Shown: one piece after another, positions 25,824 to 46,501 of the stretch
Layout: each line of letters begins with the position of its first letter
Numbering within the stretch: position 1 is the stretch's first letter
Assembly (NCBI RefSeq): GCF_002205845.1
Contig: NZ_NISI01000001.1
Coordinates: 682,001-746,000, forward strand
Direction: 5' to 3'
From: Roseateles puraquae
GTDB taxonomy: Bacteria > Pseudomonadota > Gammaproteobacteria > Burkholderiales > Burkholderiaceae_C
DNA: 64,000 nucleotides
Program-made: the position numbers and the translations under genes
The notes under the pieces: generated by a model
Database searches by the model: none
What the model saw: the letters and a program-made list of their open reading frames with translations, nothing else
Told to the model about the DNA's origin: nothing

Positions 25824-25908
25824 GTCAGCGCCGCCTGGTCGTGCGCAGGCCGTGAGATCCCTTCGGGGTGCGCGATCGAAATGAGCGTGCGGGCGCCATG
25901 CATCGGTC

Positions 25909-26958
25909 TCAGCCGAGGTTCTTCACGATGAATGGCCCGAGCCAGTTCGCCACGCCCAGCGGCAGCTTGCGCCAGGCCTTGATCATCAGTTGGTACTTGG
26001 GGTTGTTCGGGTTGTTCTGGGGAATGCTGTCGCGCTTGAAGAGCCGGTACTCGTAGGACAAGGGCTGCGGCTCGAAGCCCCAGTTCTTCTTGAAGGCATA
26101 CGGGCCCGTGCCCTGCTTGCTGCGACCGTAGTCGAACACCTTCAGCCCGCGGGCGCAGGCGCGGCGCATCAGCTCCCAGTACTTGAAGTCATTGGCCGCC
26201 AGGTCACGGGCGGCTTCGTCATCGCCCGCGTAGTAGGGCAGCACCTCGTCGCGGAAGTAGAAGGTCAGCACGCTGGACAGCGGCTTGCCGTCCGGCGCGG
26301 TCACGGTCAGCACCTCGGCATCGGGCCCGAACTCGTCGAGCAGCGCCTGGAAGTACTTCTTGGGCATGGCGGGCGTGCCGTGTCGGCGCACGTTGTCGGC
26401 ATACAGCGCGAAGAAGCGCTCGACGCCCGGGTCGATGTCGGCCCGCAGTTCGTTCTTGATGCCCTTGCGCACCATGGCGCGCTGCTTGCGCGGAATGGCC
26501 AGCATGTTGGCCTCTTCGTCCGGCAGGATGGCCTTGCGGAAGGTGACGTAGAGGTCCTGGCGCGGCCAGTCGGCGTGGCGCGTGGCACCGAGGTAGCGGT
26601 ACTCCAGGTGAGCCGCGCCCTGCCCTCGCGCGATCTGCTCGGCTTCGGCCTCCAACGCGGCGGCGGCCTCGTCGTTGAGCGCCGCCACGCCGCCATAGAC
26701 GGCGAAGGGCAGACTCGTGACCGCATGACCAAACAGGCGGCTCTTCACTTCGGCCAGCGGCAGCACGCCTTCGATCTGGCCGTCACGCTCGGCAAACAGG
26801 AAATAGCAGGGATGGCCGAACACGCGCTGGATGACGCGCATCCAGCCGCTGCGATGGAAGAACGTGGCTTGCGGGTGGGCCAGCACGAAGGCATCCCAGC
26901 GCGCGGACAAGGCGGGGTCCTGCGCGTCCAGACGCGCAATGCGGAGGGGCGCGCTCAT
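25909..26958 (-). CDS. FemAB-family XrtA/PEP-CTERM-associated protein
   Basis: A 349-residue double-GNAT protein (TIGR03019-type). Visible motifs are FFHRSGWMRVIQRVFGH near residue 33, IPRKQRAMVRKGIKNEL in the middle and the C-terminal FDYGRSKQGTGPYAFKKNWG, a strong subfamily hallmark. FemAB enzymes transfer amino acids from aminoacyl-tRNA to peptidoglycan precursors; in XrtA loci they are suspected to modify the acceptor or polymer, but the reaction is unknown. The start directly follows the deacetylase stop (0 bp gap). It ends 85 bp before Stp1. Confidence 0.92.
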   Translation of the reverse strand: MSAPLRIARLDAQDPALSARWDAFVLAHPQATFFHRSGWMRVIQRVFGHPCYFLFAERDGQIEGVLPLAEVKSRLFGHAVTSLPFAVYGGVAALNDEAAAALEAEAEQIARGQGAAHLEYRYLGATRHADWPRQDLYVTFRKAILPDEEANMLAIPRKQRAMVRKGIKNELRADIDPGVERFFALYADNVRRHGTPAMPKKYFQALLDEFGPDAEVLTVTAPDGKPLSSVLTFYFRDEVLPYYAGDDEAARDLAANDFKYWELMRRACARGLKVFDYGRSKQGTGPYAFKKNWGFEPQPLSYEYRLFKRDSIPQNNPNNPKYQLMIKAWRKLPLGVANWLGPFIVKNLG

Positions 26959-27858
26959 TCAGGCGGGGCTCAGGGCGGCAGCTGCCGTGGCAGCCGGCGG
27001 CCGCACATCGCGGCCGAGGAAGATCTCGTCCATGCGGCCCCAGCGGAAGTCTTCCAGCAACTTCGCGATGCGGTCGTGGGTGCGCGAGATGTTCACGTAA
27101 TGACGAAAGCGCGTCTTCGCATCGATGCCCGCCACGCGCGGCTGCTCGGCGTCGATCTCCCAGGGGTGGAAGTAGAAGACGGCGGACTGGCCATCGACCT
27201 CGTTGACGCGGCGGATCATCCAGCGCGACAGCGCATAGGGCAGCAGGCGGAAGTAGCCGCCACCGCTGCTGGGGAGATTGCGCGAACCCATGCGCACCGT
27301 GGTCACGGGGATCTCCAGCAGGCCCTCTCGCACCGGGTAGGCGAAGCGCGGAGAGTCGGGCATGCCGTAGTGGTCGTGGGCGATGGGGTAGACGCTGCTG
27401 GAGTAGTGGTAGCCCGCGTCGCGGAGCACATCGAAGGCCCACAGATTGGCCTTGCCGATGGAGAAGCTCGGCGCCCGGTAGCCGACGACCGGCACGCCGC
27501 CGAGGTCTTCGAGCAGGTGCTTGGCGCGGCGGATGTCGTCCAGGAAGGCGGCCGGATTGAGGTCGCTGGCGCGCTCATGGCCATAGCCGTGGCTGGCGAG
27601 TTCATGGCCACCGGCCACGATGGCCTTGACCACCTGCGGGTAGCGCTCCGCGATCCAGCCGAGGGTGAAGAACGTGGCCTTGACCTGCCTGTCGGCCAGC
27701 AGCGCGAGGATCCGGTCAATGTTGCGCTCGACCCGGCATTCCAGGCCGTTCCAGTCGTCGCGCCGGATGTAGGGCGCGAAGGCGGAGACCTGGAAGTAGT
27801 CCTCCACGTCAATGCTCATCGCATTGCGCAAGGGGCGGGTCGGGGTGGGCATCAGCAT
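26959..27858 (-). CDS. XrtA-associated polysaccharide deacetylase (DUF3473 type)
   Basis: A 299-residue NodB-family enzyme with the opening MSIDVEDYFQVSAF, which provides the catalytic Asp, then ASHGYGHERASD supplying two metal-binding His, GYRAPSFSIG, and the DUF3473 C-terminal part with YFHPWEID. This arrangement is the PEP-CTERM deacetylase family (TIGR03006). It likely removes N-acetyl groups from the polymer or an intermediate. ATG 27858 has a GAGG six to seven bases upstream; the frame can be read further up, but overlaps the ATPase gene. It is preceded by 13 bp after the ATPase stop. Confidence 0.92.
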   Translation of the reverse strand: MLMPTPTRPLRNAMSIDVEDYFQVSAFAPYIRRDDWNGLECRVERNIDRILALLADRQVKATFFTLGWIAERYPQVVKAIVAGGHELASHGYGHERASDLNPAAFLDDIRRAKHLLEDLGGVPVVGYRAPSFSIGKANLWAFDVLRDAGYHYSSSVYPIAHDHYGMPDSPRFAYPVREGLLEIPVTTVRMGSRNLPSSGGGYFRLLPYALSRWMIRRVNEVDGQSAVFYFHPWEIDAEQPRVAGIDAKTRFRHYVNISRTHDRIAKLLEDFRWGRMDEIFLGRDVRPPAATAAAALSPA

Positions 27859-27871
27859 GGCAACCTCGCTG

Positions 27872-28969
27872 TCAGTGCTGCTTGACGGCGTCAACGAGCT
27901 TCTGCAGCAGCGCCAGGGTCTGCAGGTTGATGCGCTCCAGGCGCATCATGCTGCGCTCCAGGCGCTGCAGGCGGTCGGTGTGGTGATCGGCGCTCAGGGC
28001 TGCGATCTCGGAGGACAAGCCCTCGACCTCGGCCACGCTCATCTTGAGCTTGGCGACATCCAGGTTGCCGGGTGCGCTGTCCAACCCGGCGGGGCGGCTG
28101 TCGGGCAGTTTGGCCGGTGCGCTGTCCAGCGGGCTGGCGTCGCTGTGGCGCGGCGTTTCGCTTTCCTGGGCGATGTCGCGCAGGACTTCCTTCACGTCAG
28201 CCAGCGTCAGGTGGGTGCGCCCTTGCATGAAGCCGAGCAGCAGCAGCCGATCACACAAGCGGTTGATGCGGCGCGGGATGCCGTTGCTGGCCTTGTGGAT
28301 GGCCGGGAAGGCGTCGTGGTCGAAGGTGGGCTTGCCCACGGAGCCCGCGCACTTCAGGCGGTGCTCCATGTAGCGCTGGGTCTCGTCCTCGTCCAGCGGG
28401 CCGATGTGGCAGGTGGCCGCGACACGCTGGCGGAACTGCTCCATCTCGGGCTTTTGCAGGATGCCACGGAACTCGGGCTGTCCCACCAGGAAGGTCTGCA
28501 ACAGCGACTGGTTGCTGAACTGGAAGTTGGACAGCATGCGCAGCTCTTCCACCGCGCGGGGCGTCAGGTTCTGCGCCTCGTCCACGATCAGCAGGCAGCG
28601 CTTGCCCTGCGTCACCTGGTTCACGAAGAAGGCCTCGAGCGTCATCAACAGCTCGGACTTGGGCGCATCCTTCACGCGCACGCCAAAGGCGGCGCCCACC
28701 ATGCGCAGGGTGTCCTCGGCATCAAGCTGAGTCGTGACGACATTGCCGATGACGACGTTGCTGCGGTTCAGGCTGTCCAGCAGGCCGCGCAGCAGCGTCG
28801 TCTTGCCGGCGCCGATCTCGCCGGTGATGACGATGAAGCCGTCGTTGCGCAACACGCCGTAGTCCAGGTAGGCCTTGGCGCGGCGGTGCTGCTTGCTGCC
28901 GAAGTAGAAGTTGGGGTCCGGGCTGAGCTGGAAGGGCTTGCTGCTCAGGCCGTAGAAGGCTTCATACAT
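27872..28969 (-). CDS. XrtA-associated AAA ATPase (ExeA-like)
   Basis: A 365-residue ATPase with MYEAFYGLSSKPFQLSPDP at the N-terminus, Walker A GEIGAGKTT (about residue 50), Walker B CLLIVDEAQN and sensor-like residues around SNGIPRRINRLCD. This is the PEP-CTERM ATPase family (TIGR03015), related to general secretion protein ExeA/GspA. The region from about 275 is Ser/Pro/Asp-rich, and the C-terminal 70 residues form a likely coiled coil (HTDRLQRLERSMMRLERIN). It probably drives assembly or transport steps at the inner membrane and works with the barrel protein encoded just upstream. Confidence 0.92.
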   Translation of the reverse strand: MYEAFYGLSSKPFQLSPDPNFYFGSKQHRRAKAYLDYGVLRNDGFIVITGEIGAGKTTLLRGLLDSLNRSNVVIGNVVTTQLDAEDTLRMVGAAFGVRVKDAPKSELLMTLEAFFVNQVTQGKRCLLIVDEAQNLTPRAVEELRMLSNFQFSNQSLLQTFLVGQPEFRGILQKPEMEQFRQRVAATCHIGPLDEDETQRYMEHRLKCAGSVGKPTFDHDAFPAIHKASNGIPRRINRLCDRLLLLGFMQGRTHLTLADVKEVLRDIAQESETPRHSDASPLDSAPAKLPDSRPAGLDSAPGNLDVAKLKMSVAEVEGLSSEIAALSADHHTDRLQRLERSMMRLERINLQTLALLQKLVDAVKQH

Positions 28970-29052
28970 ATCGCTGGCCCCATGACACTCGCAACCCAGC
29001 CTTCAGCGCCTTCTGGCGCCGAGCCGAGTGCGAGCAGCCGGAGCATTCCATG

Positions 29053-30585
29053 TCAGAACTGTTGGGAGACCGTGCCGTAGACCGAGTTCTCGGAATATGG
29101 CGCAGTACTCTCGAAACGACTGTGACGCGCGCCCAATTGCACGCTGAGACCGGAACCCAGTCGGGTATTCCAGTTGGCAAACCAGCTCGTCAACTGGGTG
29201 GCGCGGCCGGTCCCGTCGCCCTGGCTCTCCTGGCGCGAGGCCGTCAATGACAGCCCCGAGACCGGCGACAGCTGGTAGCTGCCCGACAGCGAGTAGGAAC
29301 GCTGCTCCACAAAGGCGTTGGTCGCCAGGTCGCCCTGGTTCAAGCCGCTGCCCAACCGGGAAGACAAGGTCCGCGTGGCTGCAGCGGTCACGTTGGTGCG
29401 CACACCCTGCAGGGTGAAGCTCAGCTGCTGGCTGCGCGTCTGGCTGGGGCCGGACGACAGAAAGCCCTGGGAGACAGGCGCATCCGGCGACAGCCCCAGG
29501 GACTGCAGCGCGGCGCGCACCAGCGCGTCACGCTTGACCGGGTCGGGCTCGACGGAGGTCAAGAGCAGCGAGTAAAGGTCGTAGTTGGTGCGGACGCTGC
29601 CAGAAGACCCGGAGTTGCCGACGATGACGCTGCGCGTGTCGGAGTAGCGCCAGACCGAGTTGCGCATGCGATGCTCGAACACCAGCCCCCGCGTATCGCC
29701 ATAGCGGTGGCTCTGGTAGTTGGCCGACAGCCGGGTGCGCGAGGTCGGCGTCCAGTCGCCCGTGACGCCCCAGGTCCGGCTGTCATTGGCCTCTCCAGAC
29801 GCACTGAGGTAGTTGCTGCGCTCTTCACCCACGTTGGCACTGAGGGCCAGGTCCGGGTCGGGACGGTAGTTGGCGCCGAGCGTGAGCGTGCTGTTGCGGT
29901 TGGCCTGGGCCAGCTTGGGCCGCATTTGCTGCGTAGAGGCCTGCGCGTACCAACCCAGGATGCCAGGGCTGAGCTGGGTCAATTGGAGCGTCGCGCCCGT
30001 GCTCCGGCTGTCGCCGAGCGCGCTGCCACGCACCTCCGTCATGGCAAGGTTGCCCCGCAAGCTGACCGCAGCAAGGCCGCCCAGCTGCGAGCGCCACTGG
30101 GGCGAGACGGTCAGACTGCCGACCTCACGGCTGTTCAGATTGCTCAAAGGGGACACGCCACCCGTGCCCAGGACCGAATTGGCCTGCTGACCGAAGGCCG
30201 ACACGTTTTGCCGAGCGATATTCGCCTGCGCCTCCACCGTCAAGGTCTGGGGCAGCAGTTCGGCTTGCAGGTTTGCGGACAGGGCATTCTGGATCTGCGA
30301 CGGCACATCCGTCTTCAGGTAACTGATCCCGTTGAGCGAGTAGTCGAGGCTGCCGCGAAACGTGCCTGAGTTGCGCGAGACACTGATGCCAGGCGATACG
30401 GTCGTGATGAGGGCCGCATCCTTGTTCTGATCGGACAGCCGCAGGTTGTCCGTCCAGGTCTGGGTGAGCGAGAACCGCGGGGTGATCGCACCACGCCCGC
30501 CCTGCCCTTCCTGGGCCTGGGCAGCCAGGGAAAGCAGCGCAACAGCCAGCGGCAGCAGACGCGTCTCAGGCCTGAGGCGCGTCAT
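29053..30585 (-). CDS. TIGR03016-type PEP-CTERM-associated outer-membrane beta-barrel
   Basis: A 510-residue protein with a signal peptide (MTRLRPETRLLPLAVALLSLAAQA, cleavage about residue 24-26) and long alternation of polar and hydrophobic residues with many strand-turn units (SLTQTWTDNLRLSD, ANYQSHRYGDTRG, SLSGSYQLSPVSGLSLTA). It ends in Phe (YGTVSQQF), the usual terminal signal of BAM-assembled porin-like barrels. It belongs to the outer-membrane family found in XrtA loci and may form or support the export pore. The start could be ATG 30585 or ATG 30594; both lie inside the end of the kinase gene, immediately after its Tyr-Gly repeat. Confidence 0.85.
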   Translation of the reverse strand: MTRLRPETRLLPLAVALLSLAAQAQEGQGGRGAITPRFSLTQTWTDNLRLSDQNKDAALITTVSPGISVSRNSGTFRGSLDYSLNGISYLKTDVPSQIQNALSANLQAELLPQTLTVEAQANIARQNVSAFGQQANSVLGTGGVSPLSNLNSREVGSLTVSPQWRSQLGGLAAVSLRGNLAMTEVRGSALGDSRSTGATLQLTQLSPGILGWYAQASTQQMRPKLAQANRNSTLTLGANYRPDPDLALSANVGEERSNYLSASGEANDSRTWGVTGDWTPTSRTRLSANYQSHRYGDTRGLVFEHRMRNSVWRYSDTRSVIVGNSGSSGSVRTNYDLYSLLLTSVEPDPVKRDALVRAALQSLGLSPDAPVSQGFLSSGPSQTRSQQLSFTLQGVRTNVTAAATRTLSSRLGSGLNQGDLATNAFVEQRSYSLSGSYQLSPVSGLSLTASRQESQGDGTGRATQLTSWFANWNTRLGSGLSVQLGARHSRFESTAPYSENSVYGTVSQQF

Positions 30586-31549
30586 TGCTGCCATAGCCGT
30601 ATCCGTAGCCGTAGCCATACCCGTAGCCGTACCCGTAACCGTAGCCGCCCGCTGCGTTCGGGCTGGCCTGGTTGAGCAGCATCATCTTGACCGGGCAGGT
30701 CTCGATGGCGGCCAGGGCCTGCTGAACCGCGCTCTGGGCGGTCTTCTCGGCATGCACGACGATGATGATCTGACCCATGTGCGACGCCAGCACACGGGAC
30801 TCCGTCGTCAGCAGCAGCGGCGGGGAGTCGAAGATGATGATGCGGTCAGGGTAGCGCTTGGCCATGTCGTCCAGCAGCTGGCGCATGGCGTCGCTGGCCA
30901 GCAGTTCGGTCGCGCGCGGATGCGGCGTGCCGCTGGGCAGGATGGTCAGTTTCTCGACGTTGGTGCGCAGCAGCACTTCGGACATCTCGACGCGCTCTTC
31001 CAGCACGTCCAGAAGCCCCGGGCCCTGCGGCAGACCGAGCATGCGCAGCACCGACGGCCGGGCGACGTCGGCATCGACCAGCATGACGGTGTTGTCCAGC
31101 TCGGCGGCGATGCTGAGTGCCAGGTTGATGGACGTGAAGCTCTTGCCCTCGCCGGCCAGCGCACTCGTGACCATCATCAGGTTGGCGTGGTTGATGGTGG
31201 CCGCGCCCTTGCCCATGGCGTTCTTGATGAGCGGACGCTTGATGACGCGGTACTGGTCGCCGGTCTGCGAACGCGGCGTGTGGGGCATCAGGAAACCCTG
31301 GGCGGCCAGGGCCACCACGTCGAGCTCGACACGCTTGGACGACGGGTGATGGCCGTCTTCCTGCAGCGACAGCCCCACCGCGGGCGCTGCAACAGGCGCA
31401 GCAGCAGCCGCCTGCACAGCCGGCGCCGGGGCCACGGGAGGCATGGCGTTGTCAGGCGCCGGCTGGCCTTGCTCATCGCCCGGCAGCACCACGCCCGCCT
31501 GGCGCAGTTGCTCCAGGCGCTGGGCGGCTTGTTCAATCAGGCTCGTCAT
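30566..31549 (-). CDS. epsG: Chain-length-determinant tyrosine kinase EpsG (BY-kinase)
   Basis: A 327-residue cytoplasmic bacterial tyrosine kinase (TIGR03018-type). The ATP site is formed by SALAGEGKSFTSINLA (Walker A), VMLVDADVARPS (Walker A') and RIIIFDSPPLLL (Walker B). The N-terminal ~90 residues are Ala/Pro-rich and probably flexible. The C-terminus is a G(YG)9SNDAPQA tail: nine tyrosines in strict alternation, which should be the autophosphorylation cluster that controls interaction with the chain-length regulator upstream. BY-kinases usually carry a scattered Tyr cluster, so the regularity is striking. It starts 1 bp after the regulator stop. Confidence 0.93.
   Translation of the reverse strand: MTSLIEQAAQRLEQLRQAGVVLPGDEQGQPAPDNAMPPVAPAPAVQAAAAAPVAAPAVGLSLQEDGHHPSSKRVELDVVALAAQGFLMPHTPRSQTGDQYRVIKRPLIKNAMGKGAATINHANLMMVTSALAGEGKSFTSINLALSIAAELDNTVMLVDADVARPSVLRMLGLPQGPGLLDVLEERVEMSEVLLRTNVEKLTILPSGTPHPRATELLASDAMRQLLDDMAKRYPDRIIIFDSPPLLLTTESRVLASHMGQIIIVVHAEKTAQSAVQQALAAIETCPVKMMLLNQASPNAAGGYGYGYGYGYGYGYGYGYGSNDAPQA
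30590..30646 (-). repeat. Imperfect hexanucleotide repeat encoding (Tyr-Gly)9
   Basis: Nine 6 bp units (consensus TAY-GGN on the minus strand) encode alternating Tyr and Gly at the end of epsG. Synonymous third-base variation (ggc, gga, ggg, ggt; tat, tac) shows the repeat is kept at protein level. Length change by whole units would keep the frame. The start codons of the downstream barrel gene follow within 5 bases. Confidence 0.9.
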
Positions 31550-31550
31550 G

Positions 31551-33140
31551 TCACACCACCTGCCGGCTCAGTTGCACAGCCAACACCGTCAATGCGACGG
31601 CAAACATCACCAGCAAGCCCCCGGCTCCGGCAGAGAAACGAATCAGGTCCACACGCTGGCGCGCGCGGTCGGCATCCGTGACCAGCCGCGTCACCACGCC
31701 CAGGATGGGCAGCTCGACGCGAGAGCGCAGGTCGTTGGCGTCGTGGAACACCGGGCGCAGCTGGCTGGCAGCGAAGGTCGTGAACACACCGATACCCAGG
31801 GCCGCGGCCATCGCACCGGCCAGCAGCAGCAGGCGGTTCGGCGCCACGGGCTTCGGGTTGGCGCGCGGCGGGTCGATCACGCGGAAGTCGGCCACGCCGG
31901 AAGCCACGTCGAGATCGCCCGAGATGGAGGCCTGTTCACGGCGCTGCACCAGCTCTTCGTAGTTGCGCTTGTGGATGTTGTAGTCGCGGTTGAGCTGGGC
32001 GGCTTCGGCTTCGAGCTGCGGCGCCGTCTTCAGCGCTGACAGCGCCTGGGCGTAGCGAGCCGTGTATTCGTCGACCCGGGCCTTCAACGAGGCCACCTGC
32101 ACTTCAGTGGTGGCCAGAATGCGCACCAGCTCCTGCACGGCGGGCGAACCGCTTTGCTGACCAATGGTGACACTGGGCGTGTTCATCGCCTGCTTGCGCA
32201 GCTCGACCAGCTCCTTCTTGCGCTGCTCTTCCAGGTCCTTGATGAGCTTGCGGGTGCTGATGATGTCGGGGTGCTGCTCGGTGTAGCGCTGCAGCAGCCC
32301 ATCGAGATTGCGTCGCAGGTCAGCCAGACGGGCGTCGAGCTCAGGCGTGGCGATGCTCGCCGTGGACTCCTGCAACAGACTTTGCGTCGTGGTCTGCGCA
32401 CCGCCACGGGCCTTCTCGGCTTCCAACTGAACCTTGGCCGCATCGCGGGCGTTGACGGCCTCGCGGTACTCCAGGCGGGCTCGCTCAAGCTGGCCACTCA
32501 ATTCCGAGATGCGTGCGGCGGCATCCTTGCCGTCGCCGGACATATTGGCCAAGTTCTTGAGACGGAACTCCTTCAGCCGGCCTTCCGCTTCCTCGAGCTT
32601 GGCCTCGTAGGTCTTGATCTGCTCGTTGATGAAGGTCGTGGCCGTCGCACTGCCGACGCGCGTCTGCCCCAGGCTGGACTCCACGAAGATGGAAACCAGG
32701 GCCTGCACCACTCGCTTGGCCGTCTCGGGGTTGCTGTCCCGGTAGCCGAGGATGTAGAGATTGTCGCGACCGACACTCTGGATGGAGAGGTTGGCCGTGA
32801 CGGTCTCGATGGTCGCTTCCTGCTGGGCCTTGGACTGATTCTTCAGATCCAGGTCGGCCATGCGCACCAGCTTCTCGACGTTGGGCCGGCTGATCAGCGT
32901 GCGGCTGAGCATCGTGACCTGCTGCTCGACGTTCGGCTGCACGGCCAGGCCGGACATCAGCGGCTTCAGGATCGATTGCGTGTCGACGTAGATGCGCGCG
33001 CTGGCCTCGTAACGGTCAGGCAGCACGAACACCACGACAGCTCCCACCACGCCGGCCACCCAAGCGACAGCCAGGCCCACCCAGCGGTACTTCCACATCC
33101 GCCGAACGATGTTCAGAAGCTGACCAATCAGCAAATCCAT
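31551..33140 (-). CDS. epsF: XrtA-system polysaccharide chain-length determinant (Wzz/PCP-2 type)
   Basis: A 529-residue co-polymerase. It has an N-terminal transmembrane helix (VGLAVAWVAGVVGAVVVFVLP, about 21-41), a long periplasmic alpha-helical region with coiled coils (EAEGRLKEFRLKNL, LEEQRKKELVELRK), the Pro/Gly segment VIDPPRANPKPVAPN before a second helix (LLLLAGAMAAALGIGVF), and a third hydrophobic helix near the C-terminus. This is the TIGR03007 layout. It sets polymer length and is regulated by phosphorylation of the EpsG kinase encoded 1 bp downstream. Upstream, 62 bp separate it from the Wza-like gene. Confidence 0.93.
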   Translation of the reverse strand: MDLLIGQLLNIVRRMWKYRWVGLAVAWVAGVVGAVVVFVLPDRYEASARIYVDTQSILKPLMSGLAVQPNVEQQVTMLSRTLISRPNVEKLVRMADLDLKNQSKAQQEATIETVTANLSIQSVGRDNLYILGYRDSNPETAKRVVQALVSIFVESSLGQTRVGSATATTFINEQIKTYEAKLEEAEGRLKEFRLKNLANMSGDGKDAAARISELSGQLERARLEYREAVNARDAAKVQLEAEKARGGAQTTTQSLLQESTASIATPELDARLADLRRNLDGLLQRYTEQHPDIISTRKLIKDLEEQRKKELVELRKQAMNTPSVTIGQQSGSPAVQELVRILATTEVQVASLKARVDEYTARYAQALSALKTAPQLEAEAAQLNRDYNIHKRNYEELVQRREQASISGDLDVASGVADFRVIDPPRANPKPVAPNRLLLLAGAMAAALGIGVFTTFAASQLRPVFHDANDLRSRVELPILGVVTRLVTDADRARQRVDLIRFSAGAGGLLVMFAVALTVLAVQLSRQVV

Positions 33141-33202
33141 CGAGAACAGTCCCTGTTAATGCAAAGCAGCCACGGCACGCATGAACTCGCGTGCCCGCAA
33201 GA

Positions 33203-33889
33203 TCAGAACAGGCTCTGCGGAATGATGAGGATGTCGCCGGGGCGCATGTCGACATTCGCCGACACGTCGCCGCGCTTGATGAGGTCTTTCAGGCGCACCG
33301 AGTACTGCTTGTTGCCCTCGGCCGTGCGGAGGATGGTGGCGCTGTTGCCGGAAGCGAAGTCGGTCAGGCCACCCACGGCGATCATCACGTCGAGCAGCGT
33401 CATCTTTTGCTTGTAGGCCAGGAACTGCGGCCGCGCCGCCTCGCCCACCACACGGATCTGCTCACTGTAGGGGCCCACGAAATTGGTCACGATGACGGTG
33501 ACGACGGGGTCGCGGACATACTTGCTGAGCTGCTTCTCGACGTCGCGGGCAACCTGCACCGAGGTCTTGCCCTGCACGATCATCTCGTCGACGAGCGGCG
33601 CGGCGATCTTGCCGTCCGGGCGCACCGGCACCGACATCGACAGCTCGGGGTTGCGCCAGACCTGGATGCTCAGGTTGTCGCCAGCACCGATGATGTAGCT
33701 GTACTCGTCTGTTGCGGCGTTCACAGGGGCAGGCGGATAGGAAGCCCCACCTAGCACACTGCAGCCCGACAGCATCACCGAACCGGCTGCCATCGTCAGG
33801 GTCAGGGTTCGCGCCGTGCGACGAAACAAGCCGTTCGCGGCGGACTTCAATGTCTCAGTAAAACCTTGAGTGCGGTGAAGCTGCTTCAA
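33203..33889 (-). CDS. XrtA/PEP-CTERM polysaccharide export lipoprotein (Wza-like)
   Basis: A 228-residue outer-membrane export protein of the TIGR03027 group. A basic N-terminus (FRRTARTLTLTMAAG) leads to a lipobox LSGC, so it is lipidated. The export domain begins YIIGAGDNLSIQVWRNPELS, followed by a SLBB-like domain (IRVVGEAARPQFLAYK, MTLLDVMIAVGG) and ends RPGDILIIPQSLF. The start is taken at TTG 33889, which has AGGGGA five bases upstream and keeps the basic region; the frame upstream to 34081 is not lipoprotein-like and an ATG within the hydrophobic core (MAAG) would remove the basic residues. It heads the operon that runs to 18342. A sigma-54-like sequence with wrong spacing lies at about 33946-33960. 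Confidence 0.88.
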   Translation of the reverse strand: MKQLHRTQGFTETLKSAANGLFRRTARTLTLTMAAGSVMLSGCSVLGGASYPPAPVNAATDEYSYIIGAGDNLSIQVWRNPELSMSVPVRPDGKIAAPLVDEMIVQGKTSVQVARDVEKQLSKYVRDPVVTVIVTNFVGPYSEQIRVVGEAARPQFLAYKQKMTLLDVMIAVGGLTDFASGNSATILRTAEGNKQYSVRLKDLIKRGDVSANVDMRPGDILIIPQSLF

Positions 33890-34105
33890 TGGAATCCCCT
33901 GCTCTAATGATGGCGACAGCCCGGGCCGCCAAGCCCTAGCTGAAAGCGGGTGATCATGCCACAGCCCCCTTGGCGGAAAACAGCCGGAGCGCCCCAAGGC
34001 AGGGGGATGACGCGGCAGCTGCCGCGTGAAAAAGACCCGGCTCGGGCGATTTCCTTCCGACCCTGAACGACCCCCGCCCAAACACCCCGCCAGTGCGGGG
34101 CCGGC

Positions 34106-35659: not shown

Positions 35660-35724
35660 CGACGCCTCTTGAATCGTGTTGAGAAACTGCCGGGGATGGT
35701 ACTACCACGCCCTCGGCAAGCACC

Positions 35725-35756
35725 AATAAAAAAGCGCCCCGCAAGCGGGGCGCTTT
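35725..35756 (-). terminator. Rho-independent terminator of the PEP-CTERM gene
   Basis: A perfect 12 bp stem (AAAGCGCCCCGC / GCGGGGCGCTTT) with a 2-base loop lies at 35731-35756; read on the minus strand it runs into a T-rich tract (TTTTTTATT). It follows the PEP-CTERM stop by 35 bp and isolates that gene from the methyltransferase below. Confidence 0.92.
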
Positions 35757-35791
35757 CATGCTGCCAGAGCAGCGCGGCTTATTGCCGAATC

Positions 35792-36628
35792 TCAGGCCGA
35801 CTTGCGACGCTTGCTGGCCACACCGACGGCCAGGAAGGCAGCGCCAACCAGGGCCAGGGCGCCCGGTTCCGGCACCGGCACGAAGAAGGCGTTGGCGGAG
35901 TTGTTGAGCAGTTGGATGCTCTGGCCCGACACCGGAATGAACGACTGGAAGTTACCGTTCAGGTCCAGCTTGATGTGGAAGGGACGCGGGGCGATGAAGT
36001 AAGCCTCACCGTCCGGGCTCTTCAGCTGGAAGTCACCGAACAGGATCTCGAAGTTACCGTTCGCCAGGCCGGAGCCGCTCGAATTGCCGTCCGCAGCGAG
36101 CGTCAGCGAAGCCGTACCCAGCAGCAGGTCGTCGGTCAGCGAGGCTGCGCCGCTTGCCAGCACGAGGTCACCAAACGACGGCACAGCGCTAGCCGAACCG
36201 CCGACGTTCCAGTCGGTGTCCTGGTTTTGGTCCAGGTAGAGCTCAATGGCGTTGTAGGTGGCCTTGAACGTCGTCGTCGTGCCGTCCGTCGTGTAAGTGC
36301 CGGAACCGATGAACTTGGCGTAGATGCCGTAGCCGTAGGCCGGGAACAGCGGGGGGTAGACGGCGTTCAGCTGCGTCGACAGGGCATTGCCGTTGCGGAA
36401 CCACTGACCGGCGTTGAAGATCGCGGCGGTGGAGAAGTGGCTCGCATCCTGGAACGTCACGACTTCGTCGTACTGGCCGCTGAGCTGGTCAGCCACGAAT
36501 TGGTTGGGGAAGCCGCCGCCGGCGCTTTCCTGGATCGTGACCGGCAGGCCAACCGTCGCTGCGTGAGCGCCAGCAGCACCGAACGCCAGGGCCACAACAG
36601 CCAGCTTCAGTTGCTTGGAAAACATCAT
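35792..36628 (-). CDS. PEP-CTERM sorting-domain protein (exosortase substrate)
   Basis: A 278-residue exported protein. It has a Sec signal peptide (MMFSKQLKLAVVALAFGAAGAHA, cleavage about residue 23), a Ser/Thr/Gly/Asn-rich mature part, and a full sorting signal at the C-terminus: VPEPG, hydrophobic helix (ALALVGAAFLAVGVA) and basic tail (SKRRKSA). The exosortase encoded at 23071-24630 should cleave near PEP. The body has no known fold that I recognise; it contains many aromatic and Asp/Asn residues and no Cys. ATG 36628 follows AGGAG by seven bases. A -24/-12 promoter lies 53 bp upstream, which suggests that expression depends on RpoN and PrsR. Confidence 0.93.
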   Translation of the reverse strand: MMFSKQLKLAVVALAFGAAGAHAATVGLPVTIQESAGGGFPNQFVADQLSGQYDEVVTFQDASHFSTAAIFNAGQWFRNGNALSTQLNAVYPPLFPAYGYGIYAKFIGSGTYTTDGTTTTFKATYNAIELYLDQNQDTDWNVGGSASAVPSFGDLVLASGAASLTDDLLLGTASLTLAADGNSSGSGLANGNFEILFGDFQLKSPDGEAYFIAPRPFHIKLDLNGNFQSFIPVSGQSIQLLNNSANAFFVPVPEPGALALVGAAFLAVGVASKRRKSA

Positions 36629-36680
36629 TTGGAATCTCCTGTTGGTGAACAAGGCGCTAGTGATTCGCCGCACACCACAT

Positions 36681-36698
36681 AAGCAGAGACCATGCCAA
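36681..36698 (-). promoter_or_regulatory. Predicted sigma-54 promoter of the PEP-CTERM gene
   Basis: Minus-strand sequence TTGGCATGGTCTCTGCTT has the invariant GG and GC of sigma-54 promoters spaced by exactly 10 bases and matches the -24 TGGCA and -12 TGC blocks. A start of transcription about 12 bases past the GC would fall near 36670 and give a leader of about 43 bases before ATG 36628. The same locus encodes PrsR, an activator with the GAFTGA loop that binds sigma-54. Confidence 0.78.
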
Positions 36699-36759
36699 CT
36701 CGCTCAACTGCTTTAAAAACAAGGACTTAGGAAATTCAAGCCGGATCAGCGCCACAAGC

Positions 36760-36776
36760 TGTAAACAATTCCGACA
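36760..36776. promoter_or_regulatory. Possible activator (PrsR) binding site
   Basis: A partly palindromic sequence, TGTAAACAATTCCGACA on the plus strand, with TGT and ACA ends, lies about 90-105 bases upstream of the predicted transcription start, where enhancer-binding proteins usually sit. No PrsR consensus is known to me, so this is only a candidate. Confidence 0.25.
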
Positions 36777-36806
36777 AGCGCCGACGCCCACCAGCGCGCC
36801 CTGGCC

Positions 36807-38146: not shown

Positions 38147-40923
38147 TCAAAGCCGCGCCTGCAGCGCCTTCACTTCCGCCTGGCCGGAGAACTTGTCTCC
38201 CAGAGCCGCCAGACGATCGAGTTCAACGCGCGCCTTGGCCTTGTCGTTGCTGCTCAGATAGTAGCTCGCCAGATGCAGGCGGTAGAGCGGAACGTCGGGT
38301 GCTGCGTCAACCGCGGAGAGCTGTATTTGCAAAGCCTTTGCGAAATCCCGCTTGCTGGCATGGATCTCGGCCAGGGTGTCGAGAAACGCCGGCTCCTGGG
38401 GAGCCAACTTGACCGCCTTCTGGGCCATTTCCAGAGCACCAGGCTTGTTCTCCCGGTTCAGCAGCCAGGCCAGGTTGTTCAGCGCCGCAGCGTTGTCAGG
38501 CTTGGCTTGAACCACGGTCGTGAAGCGCTGGCGGGCCAGTTCGTACTGCCCCTTCTTGAGCGCCAGGTCACCAAGGTAGAACACAAACGGGGCACTCGTC
38601 CACTGAGACTCGAGCTTGGCAGCCGCATCCGCCTGCCCAGCGCGAAGCAAGGCACTGTGCAGCTTGATGGCCACGTCAACCGATGGCTGCTTGGCCAACG
38701 ATTGGCGGTACGCACCGGCAGCGGCAGCCCAGTTCTTGCCGCTCCATTCAAGATCACCTTCCAGGGCGAAGCCTGCTGCCATGTTGGCGGGCTGGCGCTG
38801 CAAGGCACGAGCAGCGGCCAACGCCTCCTTGCGGTTGCCGACACCCAACTCGAGCGCCATCAACCCCTGCCTCGCCTCGACGGAATCGGGCTTGATATCC
38901 AGCGCCTTTCGTAGCGCGGCGCGTGCGGCGGGCAGATCCTTGCGAACGCGATGTACATCGGCGAGGCGCAGGTAGGGCTGCGCCGATGCCGGCTGCAGAG
39001 ACGCGAGACGGGTGAACGTCGTGATGGCCTGATTCTGGTCTCCCGACAGGAACTGCGCGCGACCCAGCGCGTCCAACAACTCGGGGTTGTCAGGCAGCAA
39101 GTTCAGTCCCTCTTGCGCGGCGGCGATCCCGCCCTTGAAATCCTTGCGCTCCAGCATCGCATTGATCAGCGCCACCCGGGGCACCACCTCTGACGGGTTC
39201 GCCTTGATCGCTTGAACCAGGGCATCCTGCACTTCCGCCGGGCCAGCACCCGACTTGGCACGCAGGCTCGAAAGCAGAAGCGCGCCCTGAGGATCACCTG
39301 GCCGCGCCTTGACGAACGCCTCCAGCCGCTGCCGCGCCTGATCGAACTTGTCATCGCCAACGTCCAGCGACGCCAGCGTTGCAATAGACGGAAAATGCGT
39401 TGGGTCAAGGCGCAGGGCATTCTCAAAAGCCGCCCTCGCCTCCTTGGCCTTGCTGCGCTGCAACTCGGCACGGCCGCGCAGGTAGGGTCCAAGAGGCGAC
39501 TTCGGTTGCTTGCGCTCCAACTGCTCGATGGCCTTGAAGGCGCCGTCGTATTCCTGACGGCGCAGATGGCCATTGATCAGCGCCAGATCCGCAGCCACGC
39601 CGGGGTCCGACGAGGAGATGGTGCGCAGCGCTTCAAAGCCCTGCTCCGTCTGGCCTTTGGCCATCTGGGCCAGAGCCAACGCCGTGCGGCTGCGTGCATC
39701 CTTCTCGTCAAGGGCTGCCGCCTGCTTGAAGAGTTGCTCCGACTTGGCCGACTCTCCACCCACCCGATACGCCTGAGCCATCAGCACCAAGGCTTCTCGC
39801 GGTGGGGCCGCCGCCTCCACCAAGGGTTGCAACGCCTTGATCGCCTTGGTCGGCTCGCCAGACTTCACGTAGACCTGACCCAGCAACAGCCGCGTCCGGG
39901 GCCGGTCGGGCGCCACCTGGAGCGCGCGAGCCAGATGCGTCTGCGCCTGCATCAACTGCCCCTTGCTCAACTCGATGGCACCGGCGAGTTGCAGCACCAT
40001 CGGGTCATCAGGCAGGTTTCGCACCAGCGGCTGAACCGTTTCGTAGGCTGTTTTCACGTCCCCCTTCTCGAAGGCCAGAGAAGCCGTGAAGAAAATCGTC
40101 TCCAGCGATTGCGGCGCCACCTTGCGCAGGACCTGCAACTGCGCCTCGACGGCCGCCAGGTCTTTGCGCCCCATCAAAAGCCAGATCAGCGAGGTGTGAG
40201 CCGCCCCGTTGTTCGGATTGCGATCGATGGCCTCGCGGAACGCCGCCATGGCCGCGTCTTCCTGACCGGTCACCAGCAGGAGTTCTCCACGCAGCTGCCG
40301 TGCTTCGGAGTCGGCCGGCGCCGACTCGATGACCTTGTCCAGCAACGCCAGCGCGCCCGACACATCCTTCTGCCCGGCAAGTCGACGGACTTCCAACAGA
40401 CGCGCGCCGAGGTGGTTGGGCGAGACGGACAGCGCCGCCTTGACGGCTGCATCAGCCTCGACCGGCTTCTTCAGGGTGATGTAGGCCTTGGCCAGGGTGA
40501 CCTGCAGATCCGCCTGCGCCTCAGGCAGCTTGAGAGTCTTGCCGGCGTATGTGCTGACCACCTTCTGGGCGTCGCCTTTGCTCAGCGCGATCCGCGCCAG
40601 CAGCGGGGCTACGCGGTCGGGGTCGAAGCCGAGATCCTGCGCCTTCTGCAACTCCACGCTCGCGGCCGCGTCTTCGCCCGCGTCGAGCATCAGCTTGCCC
40701 AGCAGGTAACGCCCTTCGGCGTCATCCGGGTTCTTCTGGAGAAGGTTCTTGAGCTCGATCACCGCGCCCTTGGTGTCCTTCTTCTCGATGTGCTTGCGAG
40801 CCGACTCCAGCAGGTTGCCCTGCGACTCGCCGGAACAGCCCGCCAGGCCCAGCGACAGGCCCAGAGCCGCCAGCACCCATGCGCTTTGGCTGAATATCAC
40901 GTGGTTCTTCCCTGACTTTGGTG

Positions 40924-40927
<4 letters not shown>
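38147..40927 (-). CDS. prsT: PEP-CTERM system TPR-repeat lipoprotein PrsT
   Basis: A 926-residue protein with a lipoprotein signal (LGLSLGLAGC, lipid Cys about residue 31) followed by roughly twenty tetratricopeptide repeats extending to the C-terminus (for example GNLLESARKHIEKKDTKGA and NPDDAEGRYLLGKLMLDAGE at the start). The family (TIGR02917) accompanies PrsK and PrsR in XrtA genomes. It should be a periplasm-facing scaffold, perhaps for polysaccharide export or for PEP-CTERM protein handling. ATG 40927 overlaps the prsR stop (ATGA), so it is in one operon with the regulator. It is among the longest genes here and has no frameshift. Confidence 0.93.
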
Positions 40928-42287
<1,360 letters not shown>

Positions 42288-42291
<4 letters not shown>

Positions 42292-44402
42292 TGGACGTCG
42301 AGCGCCGTCAGCGGCGCCTCGGTCTGGGCATGGAACAAGGGCAGCAGCAGGGTGACGGTCGTCCCCTGGTTCACTTCACTTTGCACGCTGATCTTTCCCC
42401 CCAGTTCATGCACGTATTGGTAGCTCTCGTGGGCGCCAATGCCCATGCCGCTGGCCTTGGTGGTCTGGAACGGCTTGAAGAGACGATTCTGGATGAAATC
42501 CTCGGTCATTCCGCAGCCCGTGTCTTCCACGCGAACGCGGGCTTGGCTGCCTTGAGCGTCCAGGGTGAGGCTGACGCGACCGTTGGCGGGCGTGGCATCG
42601 AAGGCGTTCTGCACCACGTGGCCCAACACCCGCTCCACGCGCTCCACATGCCCCCGCGTGCTGACACCCGGCTGCAGCACCAGTTCCAGCGTTCGCCCCT
42701 TGCTGGCCGCGGCCGAGGCCAGACGGCGGGCGATCTGCTCCAGGTCAACGCCACTGGTCACACCATGCGGCTTGTCACCTTCCCGCAGTTGCAGCATCAG
42801 CTGGCGCATCTTCTCGAGCGAGTTCTCGACGGTGTCGAGCATGTCCTGCTGGAACTCAGGGTTGTCACGCAGGCGCTTGGCGTTCTTCATCATCAGCGAC
42901 AGCTGCGTGACGATGTTCTTCAGGTCGTGCACGACAAAGGCCGACATGCGATTGAAGGCGTCGAACTTGCGCGCCTCCAGCAGGGCCTCGGTGACCAGGG
43001 CTTGGTCCAGATAGCCCGACGCCTGGCTTGCCGCAGTGCGCAGCAGGTCGCGCACCTCCCAGTTCAATTCCACGGTCGCCCGCGGCCGCCCCAGGACGAC
43101 GAAGCCGATCAACGCCTCCCGCACCAGCAGGGGCACCAGCAACCAGCACCGGTCATCGGCCACCAGCCACGCCGGCAGGTCGAGCTCCGGATAGGCCTCG
43201 CGGCGAGCGCGCCATTCGTCGATGTCGATGATCCAGGCGCGCTGCTGCCAGAACCGCGCCAGAGCACCGTCCCGCGGTTCGCTTGCGACCTCATGGGACA
43301 GGTTCCAGCGTGCCGCCTGCAGGAAATCGCCGCCCGACGAGCGCTGCATCCAGAGCATGCCGCTCGGGCTCTCCACCAGGTTGGCCAGCGCCTTGACGAC
43401 GGTTTCGGAGGTGTGCTCGGGCGCCGTGCTGCCCGACAGCAACTGCGTGAAGCGCAGCCACTCTTCCCGGTAGTCGTAGCGGTAGCTGAAGAAGTTCTTG
43501 CTGATGTAGACCCGCAATCGCGATCGCATCGAGCCCGAGGCCACCAGCAGTGCCAGCGCCACCAGCGCCACGAAGACCAGGGCCACCGACAGCGCGCGCC
43601 CCCAGTCGCCGCTGGTGTAGCGCACGTAGTAACCGACGCCGGCCACGATCAGCAGATAGGCGCCCACCAGCAACAGCGTGGCCGAATGGAACACCGCCGC
43701 TCGCGACACGTGCAGCTTGCCCAGCCAGTCGCCATGGCGGCGCGACGCCACGTAGAGCAGCGGCACGGCTGCCGCATGCACCAGGGCACGCACGCTGATC
43801 GCGTCACCGTCGAACCGCTCGAACAAGGCGGCCTGGGAACCGACGAAAAGGTCGAACACGAAGATCGCCCCGAGCCCGAGGCAGACCGGCTTGGCATTCC
43901 AGCGCGCATCGCCCGTGGCGTTGCGCAACATCTGCTCGACCAGCACCAGGCCCAGCACGGCCGTGGCCAGGGCCGCGAAGCCCTGAGGCCGCGCAAGCGC
44001 ACCCGCAGGCAGCCCGTCTGACCAGAAGACCAGGCCAAACGACAACAGCAGCACGCCCGCTGCAAGCGGCCTCAGCAGGCCGAAGGCACCGCCACGCCGC
44101 GGCGGGGGCAGCAGCATCAACATGAAGGCGTACCAGCAGCACACCCGAAGGAGGTCCAGCGTCGGCGCGATCCAGCCCGGCGGCCGTGCCGACCAATGGC
44201 TCACGCCCTCCAGCAGCACGGCGCCGGCCCAGGCTGTGCTGAACGCCAGCGCCAGCAGGAAGGTGACGGCCACGCGCGTGACGGGCTGCCCGCCAACCAC
44301 CAGCCGCTGGGCGAAGTACAACCCCAGGCCGCCATAAGCCAGCAGGGCCACCAGCGCACTGAGGCTGCTCAGGACAAGAAAGGGGGCCAGCACCTCGGTC
44401 AT
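42288..44402 (-). CDS. prsK: PEP-CTERM system histidine kinase PrsK
   Basis: A 704-residue membrane sensor kinase (TIGR02916-type). The first ~300 residues carry about eight to ten transmembrane helices, then a GAF-like domain (about 330-470). The dimerisation helix with the phospho-acceptor His lies in SAFVVHDLKNIVTQL, and the ATP domain shows HVVQNAFDAT (N box), VEDTGCGMTED (G1) and SGMGIGAHES (G2). It should phosphorylate PrsR at Asp55 in response to an unknown envelope or carbon signal. ATG 44402 is chosen over TTG 44423, although neither has a strong ribosome site. 115 bp separate it from epsB. Confidence 0.93.
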
Positions 44403-44517
44403 GACATTCGGCGCAGCGCCCAATTCAGCAAAGTCGCAGACATCCAGGATTCAAGCACGCCACATGGCGCCTGCCCATCCCGTCTAACGCCGCCACATCC
44501 GGGGCGGCCCGGCGCGG

Positions 44518-45900
44518 TCAGCGCGCGCCCTTGCCGGTCAGCACCACCGCCACGGTCTCCAGCATGATCAGCAGATCGAGGAACAGCGAATGGTTCTTCA
44601 CGTAGTACAGGTCGTACTGCAGCTTCTCGACCGAATCCTCGATGGTGGAGCCATATTCGTAGCGCACCTGCGCCCAGCCGGTGACGCCCGGCTTCACGCT
44701 GTGGCGCACCGCGTAGTACGGGATCTTGCTGATCAGCTCATCCACGAAGAACTGCCGCTCCGGACGCGGGCCCACCATGCTCATCTCGCCCCACAGCACG
44801 TTGAAGAGCTGCGGCAGTTCGTCGATGCGGACCTTGCGGATGAACCGGCCGACGCGCGTCACGCGGTCATCGTTCTTGGTGGCCCAGCGCGGCTTGCCGT
44901 CCTTCTCGGCGTCGGTGCGCATGCTGCGGAACTTGATCACCTTGAACGGCACGCCGTTCAAGCCGACCCGCTCCTGGCGATACAGCACCGGGCCGCGGGA
45001 CTCCAGTCGGATGGCGATTGCCGTGACCAGCATGATCGGCAGCGTCAGCAGCAGGATCAGCGTGGCGAAGATCACATCGCTCACCCGCTTGATGGCAGCG
45101 CGCAGCATGCCCTGGCTGAAGCCATCACCAAACACCAGCCAACCGGCATTGACGTGCTTGATGTTGATCTGAGCCAGGGTCTTCTCGAAATGGGTGGCGA
45201 TGTCGACCACGCGCACGCCCGACAGCTTGCAGTCCAGCAACTGGCGCAGCGGCATGCTGCCGCCGCGGCGCTCGGTCAGGGCCACCACGATCTCGTCGAC
45301 GTTGTGCTTCAGCGCGGCCTCGGTGAGGTTGGCGCCGTCGTTGATGATCTCGCTGGCCGGCACATCCGGCTGGTCTTCATTCGGGCCGGCATAGAAGCCG
45401 ACGATCTGGGCGTGCGGGTCCGAGGCCCGCAGGGTGTTGCCCACCGTCAGCGCTGCCTTGCCGGTGCCGAAGATCAGGATGCGACTGCGCATGCGCGCCT
45501 GCGCGCCGGAGTGCGCCGCATAGACCCGGTGCACCATCACGGCCGCCACCGCCACCATGGCCACCAGCGTGAGCGAGTCCCGATGCGTCGTGTTGGACGG
45601 CACCAGGCTGAAGATCATGTACGCCAGCGGCAGGCCGAAGAGCAATCCGAACAGCGCACGTGCGCAGGACTCGGTGACCGAGCGGTTGTGGACGTGCTGG
45701 TAGAAACCCGTCGCTGAATTGATGACGAACATGCAGCCCGCGAGGGACAGGCCATGCGACGCGGCAAACGGCAGCACCGTCTGCGCCGACTCGCCTTGGC
45801 TCAGCACCACTGCAATCACGGCAAAAACAATCAGGCCCAGGTCAAAACAAACCTGTAGCAGAGTTTGTTTATGCAGATAGTGGTTGAATATTCGAATCAT
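44518..45900 (-). CDS. epsB: Initiating undecaprenyl-phosphate sugar phosphotransferase EpsB
   Basis: A 460-residue polyisoprenyl-phosphate hexose-1-phosphate transferase of the TIGR03013 group. It has four N-terminal helices, a Rossmann-like domain (RILIFGTGKAALTVG), a fifth hydrophobic segment (VIFATLILLLTLPIMLVTAIAIRLES), and the catalytic bacterial sugar-transferase domain (GPVLYRQERVGLNG, FKVIKFRSMRTDAE, RKVRIDELPQLFNVL, MSMVGPRPE, GVTGWAQV). It begins synthesis of the polymer by loading the first sugar on undecaprenyl phosphate. ATG 45900 has GGGGA five bases upstream; ATG 45906 is possible. It is the first gene of the prs operon and is preceded by a long non-coding stretch. Confidence 0.92.
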   Translation of the reverse strand: MIRIFNHYLHKQTLLQVCFDLGLIVFAVIAVVLSQGESAQTVLPFAASHGLSLAGCMFVINSATGFYQHVHNRSVTESCARALFGLLFGLPLAYMIFSLVPSNTTHRDSLTLVAMVAVAAVMVHRVYAAHSGAQARMRSRILIFGTGKAALTVGNTLRASDPHAQIVGFYAGPNEDQPDVPASEIINDGANLTEAALKHNVDEIVVALTERRGGSMPLRQLLDCKLSGVRVVDIATHFEKTLAQINIKHVNAGWLVFGDGFSQGMLRAAIKRVSDVIFATLILLLTLPIMLVTAIAIRLESRGPVLYRQERVGLNGVPFKVIKFRSMRTDAEKDGKPRWATKNDDRVTRVGRFIRKVRIDELPQLFNVLWGEMSMVGPRPERQFFVDELISKIPYYAVRHSVKPGVTGWAQVRYEYGSTIEDSVEKLQYDLYYVKNHSLFLDLLIMLETVAVVLTGKGAR

Positions 45901-46501
45901 TTGCATCCCCGATCACCTACTGCTTGGCACCCTCAATCGCATATTGATCAACGAAATTCGAAAACAATCGATATTTCATTCACCACCCCAGCGCAGACAC
46001 CTGGCATCTCTAACCCACCAAGTGGCTGTTCCGAGCCTGAGGGCGCTTCGGAGACAGTCCGGCGGGTTCGCGCGGGGTCGACAACCGGCTTTGCAATGAC
46101 CGTAGCCGACCAGCCTCTGATCGCGCCGGCATCATGCCTCTGGCACCCCGCCTTGAAAGCCCCCCGTTTGGAGGGTGCGCGGACCCTGAAGATGTGACGC
46201 CGGCGTGCCCTGTTCGGCGACTCCCCAGCGCCGCGCGTGATGACGGGCGGGAGTAGAACGCAAAGCCAACTTCGGGCGCACGACGGACGCAGCCAAAGCG
46301 TGCGGAACGCACGCGCAAACCTGCCAAAACCCCAAAGCAATCACTTATGTGCAGCGTGCGTAACAGCCGCGCAGCCGTAGTTCCCCGCGTCGTCAATATT
46401 TACCGAGACGCTGCTTTCGGGGAGTATTCACGCCTTGCGACATTCACCCGCCACACACGCCCGAACGCGCTGGCCGCAGACACGCCGACCCGCGACAAGA
46501 C
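45901..46501. other. Long non-coding region upstream of epsB
   Basis: About 600 bases without a convincing gene: open frames are short and have no family resemblance. GC is lower near 45900-46000 than elsewhere. It contains a 7 bp inverted repeat (gcgtgcg gaa cgcacgc, 46298-46314). The region must hold the epsB promoter; a sigma-70-like pair (TTGTTT and, 17 bp on, ATATGC) exists on the minus strand near 45935-45965, with weak matches. I saw no well-spaced -24/-12 element here. Confidence 0.5.

Follow-up and report, generated by a model that had tools for sequence, protein, structure and literature searches.

The flocculation-associated PEP-CTERM gene pepA of Roseateles puraquae is very probably transcribed from a sigma-54 promoter that is activated by PrsR, the response regulator encoded in the same locus. 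Three DNA elements lie in order before the gene: a PrsR box, a site resembling the consensus for IHF binding, and a -24/-12 element. The elements, their spacing and the genes around them recur in relatives. The window, by which is meant the whole 64-kb stretch of DNA that was analysed, has a GC content of 67%. Its relevant features, all on the minus strand, are the following:

23071..24750 (-), exosortase A (XrtA) fused to EpsI; TIGR03109 331.3 bits (cut-off 208), TIGR02914 102.5 bits
24630..34081 (-), XrtA-associated polymer genes, without a box and sigma-54 pair
35730..35757 (-), intrinsic terminator after pepA, with a 12-bp stem and a T run
35792..36628 (-), pepA, flocculation-associated PEP-CTERM protein of 278 aa with a VPEPGALALVG tail
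36636..36640 (-), ribosome-binding site AGGAG, read from the sequence
36671 (-), predicted transcript start (G), with the C of GC taken as -12
36682..36697 (-), sigma-54 (-24/-12) element TGGCATGGTCTCTGCT, 'motif 2', matrix score 17.2 bits
36717..36729 (-), IHF-like site TAAGTCCTTGTTT, a sequence match of 8/9 to YAANNNNTTGATW, 32 nt 5' of the sigma-54 element
36760..36776 (-), PrsR box TGTCGGAATTGTTTACA, 'motif 1', a 17-mer ending TTTACA, 62 nt from the sigma-54 element
38147..40927 (-), prsT; TIGR02917 694.5 bits (cut-off 312.2)
40924..42291 (-), prsR, with receiver, sigma-54 interaction domain and Fis-type HTH; TIGR02915 730.1 bits (cut-off 502.6)
42288..44423 (-), prsK, histidine kinase; TIGR02916 756.6 bits (cut-off 300)
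44518..45906 (-), epsB2, sugar transferase; TIGR03013 523.4 bits (cut-off 393.35)

The preliminary description placed a sigma-54 promoter, TTGGCATGGTCTCTGCTT, at 36698-36681 of the minus strand, and the letters, strand and coordinates are all exact. GG (36696-36695) and GC (36684-36683) stand exactly 10 bases apart, as it had said, and 53 positions separate 36681 from the A of the ATG at 36628. GG-N10-GC by itself was rejected as evidence, with 1624 matches on both strands of the window. Longer patterns are rarer, with three matches in the window to TGGCA-N7-TGC and one to TTGGCA-N7-TGCW. The letters of the site are nevertheless insufficient to prove it, since TGGCAYRN4YTGCW is found 20 times genome-wide vs. 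16 times for the reversed pattern. Scores were obtained with a weight matrix that we take to represent sigma-54 promoters, and TGGCATGGTCTCTGCT differs by two letters from what is presumably the consensus, TGGCACGNNNNTTGCW. The site is held to be proven because a PrsR box, TGTCGGAATTGTTTACA, sits 62 nt upstream; this box, absent from the preliminary description, is the stronger half of the pepA element, and with its support the earlier proposal of a sigma-54 promoter is very probably right. The best other sigma-54 matches in the window reach 13.9 bits, and the box scores that go with them do not exceed 14, compared with 23 before pepA. No second pair of box and sigma-54 site was found in the 64 kb, and the full element before pepA is far beyond chance.

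The predicted start at 36671 gives pepA a leader of 43 nt, counted to the ATG at 36628. An ORF list preferred the GTG at 36673 as the start codon; this was rejected as unlikely because it lies 5' of the predicted transcript start.

The exact box, TGTCGN7TKACA, occurs nine times in the 6.06-Mb genome, and its reversed control once. Five of the nine precede PEP-CTERM genes, each accompanied by a sigma-54 site. With random placement, at least five of nine boxes would fall in the 250 nt preceding one of the 46 PEP-CTERM genes with a probability of about 1e-13. The remaining four boxes have no sigma-54 match of at least 9 bits within 110 nt, and three of these lie inside frames open for more than 400 codons. 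All 46 PEP-CTERM genes over the Pfam cut-off were scored, and five have both elements while 41 are without the pair; the total of 46 may be an undercount because the Pfam list omits two boxed PEP genes of a relative (L248 and L250 of G009). The five boxed genes lie on C12 (at 242 kb and 718 kb), C40 (39 kb), C41 (29 kb) and C43 (150 kb). One of them, L113, was counted as boxed with a spacer of 85 nt. Sigma-54 scores of the boxed genes range from 15.1 to 17.5 bits and their box scores from 17.5 to 23; the next best unboxed PEP-CTERM gene reaches 12.6 bits with a box score of 12, or 13.1 bits and 10.5 in a wider scan. Whether sigma-54 hits concentrate before PEP-CTERM genes, as the preliminary description had asked, can thus be answered in the affirmative, but they do so before only 11% (5/46) of these genes. 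A looser pattern, TTTACA-N45-75-TGGCN8TGC, has five matches in the genome and none when reversed; two precede PEP-CTERM genes and three are elsewhere, the latter with sigma-54 scores of 5.4, 6.2 and 14.9 bits. At L055 (C39:185048-185113, minus strand), TTTACA is followed by a 14.9-bit sigma-54 match away from the 46 PEP-CTERM genes.

The distribution of the element was surveyed in 60 genomes, including that of R. puraquae, with the strict pair TGTCGN7TKACA-N50-80-TGGCN8TGC. It occurs 104 times, and the reversed pattern not once. All 28 genomes with PrsR over the cut-off have the strict pair, vs. 2 of the 32 without (Fisher 8e-15, relatedness ignored). The two exceptions are G011, which is 83% complete, and G040, at 96%, where PrsR is perhaps on a missing contig. 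G040 has five strict pairs (L224, L322-L325), and its one match to the exosortase B model is XrtB. Of the 104 strict sites, 85 are followed by a frame with a PEP tail, a count that can only be inflated, because the script favoured PEP-tail frames among the start codons. The other 19 include five with related tails (AEPG, PIPG, VPLPA and two VPVPA), ten before an unrelated frame, two cut at the end of the stretch and two without a frame. L220, L221, L281 and L319 are strict pairs before frames with PIPG, VPLPA or VPVPA tails, not PEP. Read from the coordinates, a strict site lies less than 10 kb from prsR in 10 of the 28 genomes.

The pepA orthologue of G014 (L393), with 74% protein identity, has kept the box, the promoter and the length of the spacer between them. 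G014 is listed as the same genus as R. puraquae. Close relatives in that genus, L058 and L060-L063, exceed the PepA cut-off without having the box and sigma-54 pair. The control of PepA is therefore not uniform, and genes with two types of promoter go under the family name PepA. These five genes have other tails, and their upstream regions resemble each other in another way; L060 has a lone 12.7-bit sigma-54 match.

The distance between box and promoter is helically phased. It was measured at 83 PEP-tail sites whose sigma-54 element scores 11 bits or more, and 80 of these have spacings of 50-55, 61-65 or 73-75 nt. The three bins take up 14 of the 31 values that the search window of 50-80 nt allows; the limits of that window truncate the outer clusters. 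None of the 83 sites has a spacing of 56-60 or 66-72 nt. A period of 11.0 nt (R 0.71) best fits the 58 non-redundant sites, among them those of R. puraquae itself; none of 5000 draws from a normal distribution with the same mean and spread gave as high a value. The same three clusters are seen in the 14 non-redundant sites outside the genus. Spacers of 78 nt (L121) and 85 nt (L113) in the R. puraquae genome speak against a wholly sharp spacing rule.

When the spacers of the 61-65 class are right-aligned on the promoter, they give the consensus gcAAg-t-tTgatt, which at -32 matches the reverse of YAANNNNTTGATW, a sequence that we take to be the IHF consensus. IHF-like sites, defined as 8 or 9 matches of 9, are found in forward orientation in 25 of the 58 spacers (shuffle mean 1.9), in the other orientation in 17 (shuffle mean 2.0), and in either orientation in 35 (shuffle mean 3.6, with a highest value of 10 in 300 shuffles). 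Two hundred permuted consensuses gave a mean of 1.9 and a highest count of 19, vs. the 25 observed. There were no IHF-like matches in 41 real control windows; since these have a higher GC (0.68 vs. 0.50), the shuffles are relied on. The positions of the sites are also restricted, with 19 of the 25 forward copies at -33 to -31 and 10 of the 17 reverse copies at -20 to -19. These two orientation-specific positions would fit a single bend stretch that is covered either way. Within the R. puraquae genome, boxed genes with an IHF-like site at -32 (8/9) are pepA, L104/L202 and L110; none was found in the spacer of L121, and L113, with its longer spacer, was outside this test.

Two exosortases are encoded in this genome, XrtA (331 bits, cut-off 208) and XrtB, which is outside the window (364 bits, cut-off 275); a genome search found no third. 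Boxed genes differ from unboxed ones in their sorting tails. PEPxxxALVG, a pattern recognized post hoc, is present in 5/5 boxed vs. 2/41 unboxed genes of R. puraquae. In relatives, PEPxx[LIM][AG]L is found in 56 of 77 boxed tails, a set excluding own and G014 sites, vs. 14 of 74 unboxed tails in G009 and G030 (p 2e-11), where 48 of 48 and 31 of 70 PEP-CTERM matches, respectively, were examined. The ALVG ending is weaker there (15/77 boxed vs. 3/74 unboxed, p 0.005). In G039, which has XrtB and no PrsR over the cut-off, all 12 genes, taken from 17 matches listed, are unboxed and have tails of the ETYAL, DTYAL or ESYAL type. Of 30 PepA-like loci the first 14 (L058-L071) were compared; eight have a sigma-54 site of at least 13 bits and (L/M/V)AL tails, and the other six are without such a site and have different tails (e.g., PEPSSTAMLLCGLAAAGF; L060 reads IAL). 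This contrast represents few events, because five of the six siteless loci are alike and from the same genus.

A tail profile was trained on 11 tails from genomes that had been searched for XrtB, and for that exosortase only, with no match over the cut-off, and on the 12 tails of G039. Boxed and unboxed genes were separated with an AUC of 0.89 in R. puraquae and 0.91 in G030, but not in G009 (0.57, p 0.3). In these figures three genes of G030 below the box threshold (L364, L366 and L374) were counted as boxed, and two G009 genes found by the box alone were added. The profile placed 34 of the 41 unboxed tails of R. puraquae on the XrtA side. The main exception to the LAL-tail rule is a set of six boxed genes from six genomes (L199, L205, L241, L244, L249 and L268), whose products are about 170 aa long and have an ETYAL or ETYAM tail.

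A wider reading of these data is possible, although we consider it somewhat more doubtful than not. PrsR promoters would be a conserved three-part machine assembled on one face of the helix, in which the box moves only by whole turns (about 52, 63 or 74 nt). Where a genome has two exosortases, as here, few of the substrates would be switched on by this machine; they would share the tail subtype PEPxx[LIM]AL (here PEPxxxALVG) and be clients of XrtA, whereas XrtB would serve most of the remaining 41, under other control. The partition between exosortases is tentative because G009 is not separated by the profile and because of the six boxed ETYAL/ETYAM genes. If it is true, PrsK/PrsR would be devoted to the clients of a single sorting enzyme. 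No paper that treats XrtA and XrtB together was found among the main texts searched.

The identity of pepA is supported by 164.2 bits to NF033554 (PepA, cut-off 80) and 21.4 bits to PF07589 (cut-off 20.7). In order of transcription, epsB2, prsK, prsR, prsT and a FeeM-like gene precede it. PrsR has GAFTGA at residue 223, which bears out the preliminary description on this point. PrsK, judged by eye, begins with a hydrophobic region, followed by GAF and kinase domains; the role of 'envelope sensor' that had been assigned to it is putative, and its stimulus was termed obscure by Haft et al. (2006; PMC1569441). The genome encodes PrsK, PrsR, PrsT and sigma-54, the last by two rpoN genes. The FeeM-like N-acyl amino acid synthase (157 bits) lies at 38099-36807 (-), between prsT and pepA, and methyltransferase-like and ThiF-like genes follow pepA at 34106-34966 and 34982-35659 (-). 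The polymer genes at 24630..34081 encode a glycosyltransferase, FemAB, a deacetylase, an ATPase, an outer-membrane protein, a tyrosine kinase, and functions in chain length and export.

Activation of the pepA promoter by PrsR is likely, and the following sequence of events is proposed. PrsK would take up a signal and phosphorylate PrsR, which would then bind the box at -105 to -89. IHF, bending the DNA at about -58 to -46, would allow PrsR to reach RNA polymerase with sigma-54 at -26 to -11, and the AAA+ domain of PrsR, which includes GAFTGA, would open the promoter at about 36671. The resulting transcript would be short, carrying pepA only, and end at the terminator (35757-35730). After export, PepA would be processed by an exosortase, for which the fused XrtA of the same locus (23071..24750) is the likely candidate.

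It could be argued that the match is fortuitous, that GG and GC are idle, and that transcription of pepA starts at a sigma-70 promoter or comes from the upstream genes. The abundance of GG-N10-GC in the window and the small excess of the 16-mer pattern over its reversed control would be in keeping with this. We regard it as very improbable, since the box stands at the canonical distance, five of nine exact boxes precede PEP-CTERM genes, the G014 orthologue keeps the pair, and no sigma-70-like promoter was found in 35650-36900. It is also improbable, to a lesser degree, that the sigma-54 element is real and is served by an enhancer-binding protein other than PrsR, leaving PrsK out of the path. 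NtrC-type regulators are numerous, with at least 23 matches to TIGR02915 in the genome; of the 23 that were scored, out of 102 candidates, one exceeds the PrsR cut-off. Complementation of PrsK failed in Aquincola (Xia et al., 2023; PMC9850573), and in Desulfovibrio a few targets of the PrsR-type regulator are also targets of two others (PMC3333781). Against these points, the box tracks PrsR over 60 genomes.

A third explanation widens the preferred one and is compatible with it: PrsK/PrsR could be a general exopolysaccharide switch with pepA as one of many targets. The position of prsK and prsR next to epsB2 and the polymer genes would suggest such a role. It too has a small probability, considering that the window contains no second pair, that of the nine exact boxes in the genome none but the five at PEP-CTERM genes is accompanied by a sigma-54 site, and that RpoN1 seemingly does not regulate the polymer genes of Aquincola (Xia et al., 2023; PMC9850573). 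The earlier suggestion that PrsK turns on the sorted protein, 'and not only polymer synthesis', is unsupported in its second half, as the pair is missing from all polymer genes of the window. The reading of the element as a PrsR-activated promoter of pepA provides a testable, sequenced case of a PEP-CTERM regulatory circuit around a flocculation protein, and bears on the settling of activated sludge. The phased layout would predict co-regulated PEP-CTERM genes, and the match of promoter type to tail type would give a handle on exosortase-substrate assignment in genomes with two exosortases.

IHF-assisted sigma-54 promoters such as that of nifH have an activator site, a bend site and a -24/-12 element in that order. 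The same order is seen before pepA, where the match to the IHF consensus (8/9) sits between the activator site and the -24 element; the activators and genes differ, and IHF is here a predicted participant. The running text of Haft et al. (2006; PMC1569441) has no mention of IHF, periodicity of spacing or phasing. The helically phased three-part layout with a likely DNA-bending site, which comes from computation, looks new.

The idea that the sorted protein is under this control is not new, having been proposed by Haft et al. (2006; PMC1569441), who described both motifs, suggested sigma-54 control and named PrsK, PrsR and PrsT. As in their description, a 17-nt motif ending in TTTACA lies about 63 nt from a sigma-54 motif and a PEP-CTERM gene follows. 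The spacer of 62 nt before pepA compares with their mean of 62.8 nt and range of 32-92, and the distance of about 53 nt from motif 2 to the start codon is within their 23-221 nt. The proportions differ: 99 of 167 proteobacterial PEP-CTERM genes had the element in that study, vs. 5 of 46 here.

A close known case is pepA of Aquincola tertiaricarbonis RN12, which has a demonstrated role in flocculation, requires RpoN1 and has a start mapped behind TGGCAC/CTGCTT (Xia et al., 2023; PMC9850573). The RpoN part of the earlier proposal was thus already in print for another bacterium's pepA. Dependence of the Aquincola gene on PrsR was predicted only, and its prsT and polymer genes are apparently independent of RpoN1 (Xia et al., 2023; PMC9850573). 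NF033554 appears to be named for this protein. Both promoters have CTGCTT at -12, with TGGCAC at -24 in Aquincola and TGGCAT in R. puraquae; the mapped start is a G, as is the predicted one, and both genes share the protein name, a terminator behind pepA and a nearby prsT. In contrast to Aquincola, where pepA is upstream of prsT, the gene here is downstream of prsT and behind the FeeM-like gene. This comparison draws on the published description of RN12 (Xia et al., 2023; PMC9850573).

For DVUA0057 of Desulfovibrio vulgaris, DAP-chip showed enrichment of the five PEP-CTERM targets predicted for it (PMC3333781, 2011). Like PrsR, DVUA0057 is a response regulator predicted to act on PEP-CTERM genes; unlike PrsR it is plasmid-borne, belongs to a distant bacterium and is without a validated binding motif in that report. 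The pepA promoter of R. puraquae thus adds one more member to a known kind of control element, which was described in 2006 and has since been tested in part in other bacteria.
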